A DNA stretch of 64,000 nt from Halobacillus halophilus DSM 2266 (lineage in GTDB: Bacteria; Bacillota; Bacilli; Bacillales; Halobacillaceae), in assembly GCF_000284515.1 (NCBI RefSeq), contig NC_017668.1:3534001-3598000 (forward strand). Reading direction: 5' to 3'. The notes beneath the pieces were generated by a model. That model saw nothing but the letters and a program-made list of their open reading frames with translations, ran no database searches and was not told where the DNA came from. Shown here one piece after another: positions 11,454 through 16,086 of the stretch; the stretch's first letter is position 1; every line of letters begins with the position of its first letter. The position numbers were made by a program, and so were the translations under genes.

Positions 11454-12062
11454 TTAGGCTGAGGTACCGTTTAATCGTTTAGCGAGAAGTTCAATATACT
11501 TATCCAATTCGTCCCGCGTCATTCTATAGGCATCCAAGTTCCCGCCAAAAGGATCGATAATGTTGATATCAGGAATGCTGTTTTCTATTTCTTCAATCTG
11601 TTTAATCTCGTATTTTAAATCAGTCATAAGCTTTTCTTCCATTTCTTCATCACTTAAGTTTGCAGTGTGGCTTAATATGGAAGAACGTTTCTCTTCAAAT
11701 TTTGAGTAAAGCTCTTTCAGCTTCTGCCACTGATTTTCGTCAATGAGTACGTATTCTTTTAGAGTAAAGTATTTATCCTGATAATCCGGATATTGAATGG
11801 CTAGGGTTTGTTTGTGACGATCCGTCATAGTCAACACAAGATCAGTCCACTCTAACAATTCTGCCGTTACGGAACTTGTTTTGTGATCTATGCTAAACTC
11901 CCATTCTCTAAGAACAAGTTCCGTGTTTTTGGACATCGGTTCTCCTTCACCGGCAAATATACCGGCCGAACGTACCTCAATAGTTGAGAGCTTTGCTTTT
12001 AAGAGAGCTTCGGCCATAGGGCTTCGGCAAGTATTTCCTGTACAAACAAATAATATTTTCAT
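11454..12062 (-). CDS. ywlE: YwlE-type low-molecular-weight protein arginine phosphatase with insertion
   Basis: LMW-PTP fold phosphatase. The P-loop is CTGNTCRS: nucleophile Cys7, Arg13, with Thr11, the residue known to favour phosphoarginine over phosphotyrosine in YwlE. The general acid Asp170 lies in DPFGGNLDAYR. The protein has 202 residues against about 150 for B. subtilis YwlE; the excess is a charged, probably helical stretch at about 108-165 just before the acid loop. YwlE counters the McsB arginine kinase. The ATG at 12062 has AGGAG 8 bases upstream; an in-frame TTG two codons earlier is less likely. Confidence 0.9.
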   Translation of the reverse strand: MKILFVCTGNTCRSPMAEALLKAKLSTIEVRSAGIFAGEGEPMSKNTELVLREWEFSIDHKTSSVTAELLEWTDLVLTMTDRHKQTLAIQYPDYQDKYFTLKEYVLIDENQWQKLKELYSKFEEKRSSILSHTANLSDEEMEEKLMTDLKYEIKQIEEIENSIPDINIIDPFGGNLDAYRMTRDELDKYIELLAKRLNGTSA

Positions 12063-12133
12063 AGCCAATTCTCCTAACCGTTTATCATTTTACTCCATAT
12101 TATCATACGTACAAGGGGGCGTTAAAATTTTTG

Positions 12134-12670
12134 TCAGAAAATGGCATGCAAGCCGAGCGCACAGAGAATACTTCCTCCGAGTAATTCACTATACACGCCA
12201 AGAAGACCGCTAGCCCTCCGTCCAATAACAAAACCTGCCCAAGTCAGCAGCATACTGAACAGACCGAAGGAAATAATGGACACGAAAACCTCCGATTCAC
12301 GAAGTCCTAAGCTGAAGCCAACCGGAAAACTATCAATACTCACACTAAGCGCAAAAAGCCACATTCCCGCTCCCGCCAGGGTATAAGCTGCATTATGCTT
12401 GTCCGTAAATGATGCAAAAATGGTATAGCTTCCCAGACAGAAAAGCAGTAATCCTCCTCCGACAGCCGCCCACTCACTAGCACTGCCTGAAAGCCATTGT
12501 CCCAGGGCCATACCAAGTCCAGGCATGAACATGTGGAAAATACCCACAACAATCCCTGCAAAGAATGCGTGTTTTAAACGAACCGCTTGAAGCCCCATTC
12601 CGAGTGAAACTGAGAAAGCATCCAAACCTAAGGCTAACGAAAGCAAAACCAACCCCGTAACTTGTTCCAA
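12134..12670 (-). CDS. mntP: MntP-type manganese efflux pump (YwlD)
   Basis: Integral membrane protein with six predicted helices that exports Mn2+. The two repeats carry the conserved acidic motifs LGLDAFSVSLG in helix 1 and SIDSFPVGFSLG in helix 4. I prefer the TTG at 12670, placed 8 bases after GGGGAGG, giving 178 residues; the in-frame ATG at 12691 would place that site inside the gene. It lies between tsaC and ywlE as in B. subtilis. No Mn riboswitch was recognised in the 57-bp gap upstream. Confidence 0.88.
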   Translation of the reverse strand: MEQVTGLVLLSLALGLDAFSVSLGMGLQAVRLKHAFFAGIVVGIFHMFMPGLGMALGQWLSGSASEWAAVGGGLLLFCLGSYTIFASFTDKHNAAYTLAGAGMWLFALSVSIDSFPVGFSLGLRESEVFVSIISFGLFSMLLTWAGFVIGRRASGLLGVYSELLGGSILCALGLHAIF

Positions 12671-12727
12671 ATATGAGCCCTCCCCGGACATGCTATTTCA
12701 TCGTATGCGGGAAGCAGACTCTATATG

Positions 12728-13768
12728 TCAGGGCTGTTCGATGATCTTAACAGAGGCTTTTGTTAATCGATTCATAACTGCCGCCCCAACACCATAATCG
12801 GGAAAAGATTCGCATAGAATAAGGTCAATATCTGACTCTTTATATTCACGCAGCACTTCGTAAAGTCGGTTAGCTACTTCCGTAAGGTTCTCTCTAGATC
12901 CACACGGAAGAACGAATTCATGATGAAGTTTTTCAGCCAGTTCATTGCTGGCTATTACCCCAATCCGGTAACCCTCTTCTTGTAGTTCATGCAGCTGGCT
13001 CCTAAAGAACTCATCCTCCCCCTTTATTAACCACAATGGAGACTCGGGGGCATAATGTGTATACTTCATCCCTGGAGAAACCGGGGGAGCGTCTTTCCCC
13101 GTTAAGGCAGGGTCAATTTTCACTTCAGGCAGTACCTCTTCAAGATCCTCTTTCGTTATACCTCCCGGGCGAAGAATAGCAGGAATGTCAGATGTACAAT
13201 CCAGTACCGTTGATTCTACTCCTACCCCCGTCGGTCCTCCGTCCAGAATGCCTGCAATGCGTCCTTCTAAATCCTGACGTACATGTTCTGCCTTTGTAGG
13301 ACTCGGGCGCCCTGAACGGTTCGCACTCGGTGCAGCCAAAGGCAGCTCTGCTGCTTTCAGCAAAGCTAAAGCTAATGCATGATCCGGCATGCGAATAGCT
13401 ACCGTTTTCAACCCTGCTGTTACATTCTTTGAGGCTGTTCCGTTGCTTTCTAAAATTAAAGTAAGCGGTCCTGGCCAGAATCTTTCCATAAGATTACGAG
13501 CTACCTGAGGAATATGAGTAACGAGATCCTCTACTTCTCTTATGCTTGCCACGTGCACGATTAAAGGGTTATCAGACGGGCGCCCCTTAGCTTCAAAGAT
13601 TCTTTGAACCGCACTTTCATTCGTAGCATCTGCTCCAAGCCCATAGACTGTCTCTGTAGGAAAAGCAACCACTTGTTGTTCTCTCAATAAGTACGCTGCT
13701 TCTTGTATGGAAACATCTGATTCCTTTGGTTGTTCAGAGGGTTTCCACAACTTCGTTATCATACTCAT
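12728..13768 (-). CDS. tsaC: L-threonylcarbamoyladenylate synthase (Sua5/YwlC)
   Basis: Makes threonylcarbamoyl-AMP from threonine, bicarbonate and ATP, the first step of t6A37 tRNA modification. 346 residues: a TsaC domain (about 15-210) with AFPTETVYGLGADA, KGRPSDNPLIVHV and PLAAPSANRSGRPSPT, and a C-terminal Sua5 domain with PGMKYTHYAPESPLWL in the linker. The ATG at 13768 follows AAAGGAG by 8 bases. The gene starts next to the DnaA-box cluster. Confidence 0.96.
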   Translation of the reverse strand: MSMITKLWKPSEQPKESDVSIQEAAYLLREQQVVAFPTETVYGLGADATNESAVQRIFEAKGRPSDNPLIVHVASIREVEDLVTHIPQVARNLMERFWPGPLTLILESNGTASKNVTAGLKTVAIRMPDHALALALLKAAELPLAAPSANRSGRPSPTKAEHVRQDLEGRIAGILDGGPTGVGVESTVLDCTSDIPAILRPGGITKEDLEEVLPEVKIDPALTGKDAPPVSPGMKYTHYAPESPLWLIKGEDEFFRSQLHELQEEGYRIGVIASNELAEKLHHEFVLPCGSRENLTEVANRLYEVLREYKESDIDLILCESFPDYGVGAAVMNRLTKASVKIIEQP

Positions 13769-13825
13769 TTCTACTACTCCTTTTTCTTCGACAATTAACT
13801 TGATATCGTAGTATCCATTCTACAA

Positions 13826-14020
13826 GTTTCCACAAATTCAGACATTATACACAGGTTGTCCTCAAGTTATCCACAAAGATACCCACATATCCAAAGAAAC
13901 CGTTAGTAATTTTTACAATACAAAAAATAAAATCCACAGGTTATCCACTGAATTAGACACATCTGTGTATAAGTACCCCATTTATACACAGTTAGTTGTG
14001 ATTAACTCGATATATCCACA
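13826..14020. promoter_or_regulatory. DnaA-box cluster (ywlC-ywlB junction)
   Basis: At least six DnaA-box-like 9-mers are packed here: TTATCCACA (13867-13875, perfect), TTATACACA (13845-13853 and 13982-13990), the same on the minus strand (13964-13972), TTATCCACT (13941-13949) and ATATCCACA (14012-14020). Weaker ones are GTTTCCACA (13826) and AAATCCACA (13930). The last full box overlaps the 3' end of the next ORF. From memory, the B. subtilis ywlC-ywlB region is one of the known in vivo DnaA-bound sites. Confidence 0.8.
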
Positions 14021-14303
14021 AGCACTTTTCGACATCTTGCCGTTCAAAACGCTGATGCTGCAGGATATGATCAAGGGCTCCCGAATGGCTGTCCACATGA
14101 ATTTCATCCATCTTCTGTGCCTGCGCATAATACTGAATCAATTCAAAAACACCCAGAACCTGACTGGGTGAAACCTGGGAAACGACGTGCAGCTGCTCTA
14201 ATTTGAATGCCCCATTCCCCTGAGCACTCAAATGAAAATGTCCAATCTTACGCTTTCCTTCTTTTAAATAGTAGAGTTTCTCGTCCATTTTTTCAATATA
14301 CAC
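13992..14303 (-). CDS. Small GNAT-like protein at the ywlB position
   Basis: 103 residues, not confidently assigned. The second half (LEQLHVVSQVSPSQVL through HSGALDHILQHQRFER) has the rhythm of a GCN5-type acetyltransferase: central strand, helix with YYAQAQKMDEI, then a last strand-helix ending in a QRFE-like segment. It lacks a clear acetyl-CoA pyrophosphate loop. B. subtilis has an acetyltransferase-like gene, ywlB, at this position. The start is a GTG at 14303 after AAGGGGTG. The 3' end overlaps the DnaA-box cluster. Confidence 0.65.
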   Translation of the reverse strand: MYIEKMDEKLYYLKEGKRKIGHFHLSAQGNGAFKLEQLHVVSQVSPSQVLGVFELIQYYAQAQKMDEIHVDSHSGALDHILQHQRFERQDVEKCLWIYRVNHN

Positions 14304-14305
14304 GA

Positions 14306-14354
14306 ATCATCCACACCCCTTTTCTTTTACATTATGAAAAAGGGTGTGGATGAT
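14306..14354. terminator. Long hairpin between spoIIR and the ywlB-position ORF
   Basis: A 13-bp perfect stem (ATCATCCACACCC with GGGTGTGGATGAT), one mismatch, then four more A-T pairs. It begins 3 bp past the spoIIR stop. The right part also holds the ribosome site of the downstream ORF, so folding could end the spoIIR transcript or hide that start. No long U-run follows. Confidence 0.6.
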
Positions 14355-14357
14355 ATG

Positions 14358-14966
14358 CTAGGAAAATAGTTTATCCCAAAGTTTGACCACAAAGAATTTC
14401 ACTTCTTTTGCATCGTCTGCAGGTTCGGCTTCTATTTTATCTGAATTTTTCTCCTCAGCTTGCGCTACACTTGTGCCATTGGAGAAGTCAAGGAAACATA
14501 GAGGAGGAAATAATACGCACCACCAATTATCTCCTGTCCCTTGCCCCAGAGTGATTAAAATGGCTTCATATTCACCGGCCGGGTACATATATGTACCATA
14601 CAATTTAGCAGGAAACGTAACGGAATCATTATAATCCACTTCAAAAGAGTAGTTTATACCTTTTTTCTCGAGGGTTTCTGCTACTACTTTTTCAATCTCA
14701 GGAAGACGATTTTGAATCATATCTCTGGCTTCTTCAATGGAAGTTAAATCTTTTACCCACCTGTTAATTTCCTGATTTACTTCATCCCGTACAAGTCGTT
14801 TGATCTGCTGGTCCTGTTGATCATTGCTGTCAGCTAGTATGCGAAGACGAATCGCTTCGTCAGGAATGACTTGATATTGATTCCACTCAGCTCCTGTGCT
14901 TTGCCCCCAAGGTAATACAACAATTATAATGAATAATGCCAGTAATAAGCGTACGGTGTTTTTCAT
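14358..14966 (-). CDS. spoIIR: Stage II sporulation protein R
   Basis: Forespore-secreted signal protein that triggers processing of pro-sigma-E by SpoIIGA across the septum. 202 residues with an N-terminal signal segment (about 5-25) followed by the family core: IRLRILADSNDQQDQQIKR near residue 40, and the central PAKLYGTYMYPAGEYEAILI and GDNWWCVLFPPLCFLD. It sits between prmC and the ywlB-position ORF as in B. subtilis. A good sigma-F promoter match lies at 15001-15030. Confidence 0.96.
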   Translation of the reverse strand: MKNTVRLLLALFIIIVVLPWGQSTGAEWNQYQVIPDEAIRLRILADSNDQQDQQIKRLVRDEVNQEINRWVKDLTSIEEARDMIQNRLPEIEKVVAETLEKKGINYSFEVDYNDSVTFPAKLYGTYMYPAGEYEAILITLGQGTGDNWWCVLFPPLCFLDFSNGTSVAQAEEKNSDKIEAEPADDAKEVKFFVVKLWDKLFS

Positions 14967-15000
14967 TTTGGTAAGTCCTCCCTGTCCCTCTGTTAGTTGC

Positions 15001-15030
15001 TAGTATAGGCAGAGGCGGAAGAATTTAAAC
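15001..15030 (-). promoter_or_regulatory. Sigma-F promoter candidate for spoIIR
   Basis: Minus strand: GTTTA (15026-15030), a 15-base spacer, then GCCTATACTA (15001-15010). The -35 fits GYWTA fully and the -10 fits most of GGnrAnAMTW. The start codon lies about 35-40 bp downstream. spoIIR is a sigma-F gene in B. subtilis. Confidence 0.65.
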
Positions 15031-15219
15031 CTATCAATCTATGAACCTATTCTCGGTAAAATCATAAGAGTACTGTTAACGCACACTTTGAGTTGGAATC
15101 TGAACACATTCCTGTTACTTGGATCGAATGGCGAGTTGGGAAACCATTCGGTTTTTAAGATGTGAACGAGACATTTCTAACAAAAGCAAACCATTTAGTT
15201 ATTCCAGATTTTTTAAAGG

Positions 15220-16086
15220 TCAGCTGGAAACACGACTCGCAAACACCATTCTGTCTTTTTTATTAATATCTTTTCGAATCTCTACCGTGTAATCAGGAAG
15301 GCTATCTTGAATGATTTTTTTTACGGCATTCCCTTGTAGATATCCAATTTCAAAAGCGATTAAAGAAGGAGAATGATTCGAGTCCTTAATCTGTTTCACA
15401 ATCGTCTCGTAAGCGGCCAGTCCTTCCCGATCCGCAAATAAGGCAAGAGCCGGGTCAAAATTCACTACAGTGTCATCCATCAAATCCTTATCTACATGCG
15501 CAATGTATGGTGGATTGGAAACCACAATATCGACCGGTATATCCTTAAACGGTGCATAAAAATCGCCTTGAATAAACTGAATATCCGCTCCAAGCTTTTG
15601 AGCATTGGCGGATGCGGTTTGCAGTGCCTCCTCAGAAATATCACTTGCAAAGACATCTGCTTTGTGCAGTTCAAGCGCCAGTGTTATAGCTATAATACCG
15701 CTTCCTGTACCTATATCCGCTATTTGAGGCTTGTCCTTATTAGAGCTTTCCACCCAGTTCAAGATCCCTTCTACCAGTTCTTCCGTTTCAGAACGAGGAA
15801 CTAAAACATTTGAATTCACTGAAAAACTTCTCCCAAAAAAGTCAGCCTCTCCTATAATATGCTGGACAGGCATGCCGGTTTCAGCGTGAACCCGTACACT
15901 CTCCACGAAGACCTCGCGTTTACTTTCTGGAAAAGGGTCTTTTTCATAGGCTAATAACTGTGCGAAAGACATGTTTAAAACATGCTCCAGCAATAAATCC
16001 GCTACTCTTGTTTCCCGCGTATGCTTACCTAAAAAAACGGAAGCCCAGTGACGGGCTTCCTGAATCGTAGTAAAGTTTGAATTCAT
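15220..16086 (-). CDS. prmC: Peptide chain release factor N5-glutamine methyltransferase
   Basis: Methylates the Gln of the GGQ motif of release factors using SAM. 288 residues from the ATG at 16086, which lies 1 bp past the prfA stop, so the genes are coupled. N-terminal helical domain, then a Rossmann methyltransferase domain with IADIGTGSGIIAITLAL and the diagnostic catalytic NPPY in VVSNPPYIAH. A longer in-frame start upstream would lie inside prfA and is rejected. Confidence 0.95.
   Translation of the reverse strand: MNSNFTTIQEARHWASVFLGKHTRETRVADLLLEHVLNMSFAQLLAYEKDPFPESKREVFVESVRVHAETGMPVQHIIGEADFFGRSFSVNSNVLVPRSETEELVEGILNWVESSNKDKPQIADIGTGSGIIAITLALELHKADVFASDISEEALQTASANAQKLGADIQFIQGDFYAPFKDIPVDIVVSNPPYIAHVDKDLMDDTVVNFDPALALFADREGLAAYETIVKQIKDSNHSPSLIAFEIGYLQGNAVKKIIQDSLPDYTVEIRKDINKKDRMVFASRVSS

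Follow-up and report, generated by a model that had tools for sequence, protein, structure and literature searches.

Clusters of DnaA boxes outside oriC are known, in Bacillus, mostly from one species. The closest described system is DnaA-binding region 6 of B. subtilis, located 'upstream of ywlC; downstream of ywlB', which comprises 9 sites and binds DnaA in vitro with a Kd of 0.25 uM for ATP-DnaA and 0.45 uM for the ADP form (PMC4447404, cited here from excerpts, as are the other papers below). According to the same excerpts, DnaA appears to repress ywlC in B. subtilis (PMC4447404), a direct role that was absent from an earlier, sequence-only reading of the locus described here. In an arrA mutant, where DnaA is raised about twofold, PywlC-lacZ is lower (PMC12112137), and a list of DnaA-regulated genes can be found in PMC8203912. 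When six extra-oriC clusters of B. subtilis are deleted together, initiation becomes early (PMC5295017, PMC13220808), and single clusters are of little importance in this species, according to the excerpted part of a review (PMC5295017). Deletion of ywlC in B. subtilis produces a stringent-response signature and restores the viability of an smc mutant (PMC4634966). In Escherichia coli, datA stimulates the hydrolysis of DnaA-ATP in concert with IHF (PMC5295017); IHF and datA are absent from B. subtilis, as stated in the excerpts of PMC13220808.

Here, we describe a cluster of predicted DnaA boxes beside ywlC in Halobacillus halophilus DSM 2266. The window, i.e. the whole stretch of DNA that was analysed, has a length of 64,000 nucleotides and corresponds to positions 3,534,001-3,598,000 of a 4,150,632-bp contig (NC_017668.1).

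A cluster of predicted DnaA boxes upstream of ywlC

When both strands were scored for exact or one-mismatch occurrences of the box consensus TTATNCACA, eight nine-mers, four of them exact, were found at 13845-14020, a span of 176 bp; the sequence-only reading had announced at least six close matches on both strands within 195 bp. Six of the eight stand between ywlC and an upstream ORF in the position of ywlB, and the other two are inside the 3' end of that ORF, which the cluster reaches as had been proposed. The site at 13826, formerly taken as the left edge, is GTTTCCACA, with two mismatches, and the boxes of the cluster with at most one mismatch begin at 13845. The features of the region are the following (fractions refer to the Halobacillus members of a genus alignment).

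12728..13768, minus strand: ywlC (tsaC), threonylcarbamoyl-AMP synthase (TIGR00057, 2.2e-68; PF01300; PF03481)
13844..13873, minus strand: promoter-like TGGATA-18-TATAAT, 10/12 consensus match, both hexamers overlapping DnaA boxes
13845..13853, plus strand: DnaA box TTATACACA, exact; at most one mismatch in 22/22, exact in 20
13856..13864, plus strand: degenerate site TTGTCCTCA, two mismatches, in phase, 11 bp from either neighbour
13867..13875, plus strand: DnaA box TTATCCACA, exact; at most one mismatch in 22/22, exact in 21
13879..13887, plus strand: degenerate site ATACCCACA, two mismatches, in phase, unit 4 of the array 13845-13887
13941..13949, plus strand: DnaA box TTATCCACT, one mismatch; at most one mismatch in 21/22, exact in 5
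13953..13961, plus strand: DnaA-box-like TTAGACACA, one mismatch; at most one mismatch in 1/22
13964..13972, minus strand: DnaA box TTATACACA, exact; at most one mismatch in 22/22, exact in 20
13982..13990, plus strand: DnaA box TTATACACA, exact; at most one mismatch in 22/22, exact in 19
13992..14303, minus strand: 103-aa ORF in the ywlB position; candidate YwlB by position
13997..14005, minus strand: DnaA-box-like TTAATCACA, one mismatch; at most one mismatch in 16/22; at the 3' end of the ywlB-position ORF
14012..14020, plus strand: DnaA-box-like ATATCCACA, one mismatch; at most one mismatch in 13/22; at the 3' end of the ywlB-position ORF

The sites at 13845, 13856, 13867 and 13879 form a same-orientation array with offsets of 11, 11 and 12, two of its units having two mismatches. 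One of these, 13856..13864, shows good conservation in the genus alignment and is possibly a weak DnaA-binding site, and at the other, 13879..13887, many genus members carry TTACCCACA, with one mismatch. The boxes at 13964 (minus) and 13982 (plus) are a back-to-back pair with a start-to-start distance of 18 bp. The box-like site at 13953 has at most one mismatch only in the window's own sequence, and is thus not conserved.

With an exact box counted as 2 and a one-mismatch box as 1, the cluster scores 12 per 195 bp versus 2 for the best stretch elsewhere in the window. In 1000 simulated 64-kb windows (first-order Markov), the maximum was five boxes, and a score of 5, per 195 bp, and the genome-wide Poisson expectation is about 9e-6 places with four exact boxes per 146 bp. 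The window as a whole is mildly enriched, with 81 matches of at most one mismatch versus a shuffled mean of 61 (sd 7.4). The earlier claim of a density far beyond chance is thus borne out: stretches of equal density were seen neither elsewhere in the window nor in the simulations. A scan of 12000-16000 against Rfam returned zero families at gathering cut-offs.

The gene order in the window is spoIIR - ORF - ywlC, with the cluster upstream of ywlC. The sequence-only reading had named a DnaA-binding region of B. subtilis between ywlC and ywlB, and this matches region 6 as excerpted in PMC4447404. By YwlC, the closest named relatives are Halobacillus alkaliphilus FP5, at 97%, and H. halophilus AcN7-4, at 95%. 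The 103-aa ORF at 13992-14303 gave 0 matches in NCBIfam and 0 above the cut-off in Pfam. At one of the loci compared (L062), no ORF of at least 60 aa lies on the ywlC strand between a spoIIR-like ORF and ywlC, and boxes are still found upstream of ywlC. Between spoIIR and the upstream ORF of the window, positions 14305-14353 can form a 19-bp stem with an 11-base loop, with TCATCCACA in both arms and no T-run after it on the ORF strand.

The promoter-like sequence at 13844..13873 is one candidate for the ywlC promoter, whose placement in the window is uncertain; 13700-14400 contains 7 promoter-like sites versus 1.9 expected. In the window's family, the best promoter-like match stands 9 bp beyond the last box in 21 of 44 loci, the window not being among them. 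In other families, where 62 loci were read and 48 had such a match, it starts 2-6 bp beyond the last box in 24.

Other box groups of the genome

The genome contains 189 exact boxes versus 129 matches of the reversed pattern. The 187 exact boxes listed stand at least three together within 500 bp at the following places: twice at oriC, at 416874-417046, in the ywlC cluster, at 4088298-4088563 and at 4147327-4147455. The counts of weaker boxes cover the window and five fetched stretches, and for the rest of the genome the ranking is limited to exact boxes. The box groups at the contig start (161-318 and 1877-1960) are taken as oriC from their position and density. As to the origin, the ywlC cluster sits 603 kb from these dnaA-side groups, i.e. 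14.5% of the chromosome, and is thus oriC-proximal.

The cluster at 416874-417201 (L032) is located between tsaD and a facing ABC-F-like gene, at convergent gene ends. The group at 4088298-4088661 (L033), which adjoins an htrC-like gene, has the highest near-box density of all groups outside oriC that the five fetched stretches contain (score of 14 per 300 bp), and three exact boxes at 4147327-4147455 (L034) lie upstream of mnmE; the labels ABC-F-like, htrC-like, mnmE and tsaD are readings of the translations. In B. subtilis, htrC presumably adjoins the yydA DnaA cluster and counterparts would then be present here for four of the six clusters that B. subtilis has outside oriC. Among the 187 listed exact boxes, no place with three points to the sda and ywcI clusters, and the stretch near 2785 kb holds no dense cluster by exact and one-mismatch counts. 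tsaC, tsaD and mnmE are three tRNA-modification genes beside DnaA clusters, possibly by coincidence.

Conservation from the genus to the order

Conservation of the boxes in close relatives had been put forward as a check, and the boxes at 13845, 13867, 13964 and 13982 indeed have at most one mismatch in all 22 Halobacillus genus members aligned. The mean frequency of the major base is 0.872 in boxes versus 0.792 between them, a modest gap, to which two non-box runs that are invariant in 22/22 contribute. These runs, 13883-13895 (13 bases) and 13900-13907 (8 bases), are more conserved than the boxes, and the words with which they begin hardly occur outside the window's family; they are possibly a site for another protein.

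For wider comparisons, a cluster was defined as at least four boxes with at most one mismatch, at least two of them exact, per 200 bp, lying no more than 600 bp upstream of ywlC. ywlC is present in all 44 genomes of the window's family and is preceded by a cluster in 42; the two loci below the threshold have 8 boxes with 1 exact (L029) and 2 boxes with 0 exact (L046). Together with the spoIIR - ORF - ywlC order, this agrees with the earlier statement that both site and position appear conserved.

In the order, ywlC is present in 199/199 genomes. Upstream DNA was read at 62 loci, which represent 36 of the 46 other families and were chosen from listed places with a bias to closer YwlC relatives, and a cluster was found within 600 bp in 44/62 and within 1500 bp in 49/62. 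Against this bias, 12 genomes were added, among them one for each of the 10 families not yet represented (in G075, ywlC is in pieces), and 8 of the 12 have the cluster. The combined other-family loci thus represent all 46 families, with a cluster in 52/74 within 600 bp and 57/74 within 1500 bp; 22/74 are below the 600-bp threshold, and control pieces have a cluster in 0/254. Pontibacillus-type loci (L052-L054, L058, L060, L119, L120) have their exact boxes farther upstream of ywlC instead, at distances above 450 bp. Eight remote loci from Clostridia and others (L121-L128) have zero exact boxes in the 450 bp upstream of ywlC.

The flanks of tsaD and mnmE were read at 30 loci from the 61 genomes searched. 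A cluster is present at the tsaD 3' flank (tsaD-ydiF) in 25/30 and at the mnmE 5' flank in 9/30, mnmE flanks often having three exact boxes and thus falling below the cluster threshold. The tsaD-ydiF and ywlC clusters are on opposite chromosome arms in 6/6 chromosomes computed. ywlC (tsaC) and tsaD are two genes of the tRNA t6A pathway, and boxes are kept beside both across the order; the t6A function shared by the enzymes YwlC and TsaD may be a coincidence.

Box layouts and the facing pair common to oriC

Same-orientation offsets in the window's family (n=44) are 41 (36), 11 (35), 33 (26), 12 (25), 22 (25), 34 (17) and 30 (16), and in other families (n=62) 21 (35), 12 (31), 22 (21), 33 (20) and 11 (18), counts being given in brackets. 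Most of them, 30 excepted, are approximate multiples of the helical turn, which would set the boxes on one face, an agreement judged without a null model. The layout + 12 + 21 + 12 -, scored with 1 bp of slack and up to two mismatches in the first box, occurs in 37/62 other-family loci versus 0/44 in the window's family, which has a layout of its own, with a back-to-back pair 18 bp apart in 34/44 loci. These layout counts, and the terminator counts below, refer to the 62 other-family loci without the 12 added.

A strict facing pair, TTATNCACA-N2-4-TGTGNATAA, occurs at 52 places in 41/61 genomes, and its backwards control at 0. Among the 52 places, 21 are at ywlC (20 within 1 kb, plus G065), 19 near oriC, 2 at tsaD and 10 elsewhere or unplaced. 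In the window's genome, the strict facing pair is found at oriC (position 254) and is absent at ywlC.

Terminator-like hairpins made of boxes

With the rule of a perfect stem of at least 9, -8 kcal/mol or better and a T-run, terminator-like hairpins were found in 33/62 other-family loci, made of opposed boxes in 25, and in 13/44 family loci, made of opposed boxes in 6; the control figures are 4/99 and 0. In the 49/62 loci with the pair, the arm flanks pair in 195/294 cells versus a shuffled mean of 144, with 0/20000 shuffles as high. An alignment of 39 non-duplicate sequences with a gap of exactly 3 has 81.7% of its cells paired versus 75.5% when shuffled and at most 47.4% when slid, and two-sided changes number 44 versus 27.4 in shuffles (0/500); two of five covariation measures are not above shuffles (190/500 and 148/500), and the tests are inflated by the relatedness of the sequences.

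The pair 13964-13990 of the window forms a stem of -11.4 kcal/mol (z -1.57; 12/200 shuffles as good), with a variable base that is unpaired in a number of genus mates. No T-run accompanies it on the ORF strand, and a terminator role is not claimed in the window itself.

Discussion

The DnaA-box cluster beside ywlC is real and far denser than chance. Its position is that of a DnaA-binding region published for B. subtilis, and it thus belongs to a known kind of element. We propose that, in Halobacillus, it corresponds to the B. subtilis ywlC cluster and acts in DnaA titration and in ywlC repression, a reading to which we give a probability of about 85%. By analogy with B. subtilis, DnaA would bind the cluster in Halobacillus, would probably do so cooperatively, and the same events would follow. 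Several DnaA molecules would assemble on the oriC-proximal cluster and be withdrawn from oriC; passage of the fork would double the sites, withdraw more DnaA and help to delay the next initiation. Bound DnaA would also cover the ywlC promoter region and lower ywlC transcription, making ywlC a putative target of DnaA repression.

The cluster might owe its retention mainly to a role as operator of ywlC under the control of DnaA, titration being a by-product: more DnaA would lower YwlC and tRNA t6A, which could slow growth and, through a putative stringent response, initiation. This would fit the persistence of boxes with ywlC where the upstream ORF is missing (L062), the promoter-like match lying 2-6 bp beyond the last box in 24/48 other-family loci with a match, and the stringent-response signature of the B. 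subtilis ywlC deletion (excerpts of PMC4634966). However, an operator would work with fewer boxes than the observed number, which reaches 8-11, and the step from t6A to initiation is itself putative. Moreover, control of transcription offers no explanation for the similarly conserved tsaD-ydiF cluster (25/30), which is flanked in this genome by the ends of two convergent genes, and we consider an operator as the main role unlikely. As for chance accumulation in AT-rich intergenic DNA, single near-matches are indeed frequent (81 in the window versus 61 expected), but more than five per 195 bp were never reached in 1000 simulated windows and the cluster is conserved across genera. The Markov simulation and the conservation in genus, family and order rule out chance clustering, to which we attach a practically negligible weight.

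The hairpins raise the question of whether the boxes are mainly a transcription terminator or another RNA element, their likeness to DnaA boxes being due to descent. The best terminator-like hairpin consists of opposed boxes in 25/62 other-family loci and 0/99 controls, and the flanks of its arms covary. Yet most boxes take no part in a hairpin, and the facing pair is also a mark of oriC (19/52 places). The window pair 13964/13990, devoid of a T-run on the ORF strand, has a fold little better than that of shuffles (z -1.57), and we hold a primary RNA role to be highly improbable. A more ambitious scheme would see in the boxes of ywlC and tsaD an order-wide element joining replication to translation: the facing pair would be both a DNA site and a terminator stem, DnaA would set ywlC read-through as well as initiation, low t6A would feed back via the stringent response, and the window's family would have rebuilt the layout in place. 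We regard this scheme as doubtful.

We thus retain DnaA titration together with ywlC repression as the likely function of the cluster. What is added here is the order-wide conservation of this cluster and of tsaD-ydiF, the layouts, the oriC-type facing pair and the terminator overlap in other families. No published account of the conservation of the DnaA/ywlC cluster in Bacillales was found in the open literature; priority is claimed neither for it nor for the terminator overlap. The persistence of boxes at ywlC and tsaD-ydiF across the order argues for long-standing selection, and these two clusters should be the first to be tested. Assays of DnaA cooperativity could use the two box layouts as ready designs, and whether bound DnaA alters termination can be tested concretely on the terminator overlap.

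The locus resembles region 6 of B. subtilis in its gene neighbourhood, in the side of ywlC on which it stands and in being oriC-proximal; the box numbers are similar, with 9 sites in B. subtilis, from the excerpts of PMC4447404, and 8 within one mismatch here. It differs from the B. subtilis type in that the order layout + 12 + 21 + 12 - is missing in the window's family, the comparison being with other-family loci. The gcp (tsaD)-ydiF cluster of B. subtilis, with its counterpart here at 416874-417201, is likewise extra-oriC, dense and conserved; unlike the ywlC cluster, it lies between convergent gene ends and on the other chromosome arm. E. coli datA has several DnaA boxes outside oriC in common with the ywlC cluster, which would likewise restrain initiation, but it differs, in the excerpted descriptions, by its use of IHF and DnaA-ATP hydrolysis.
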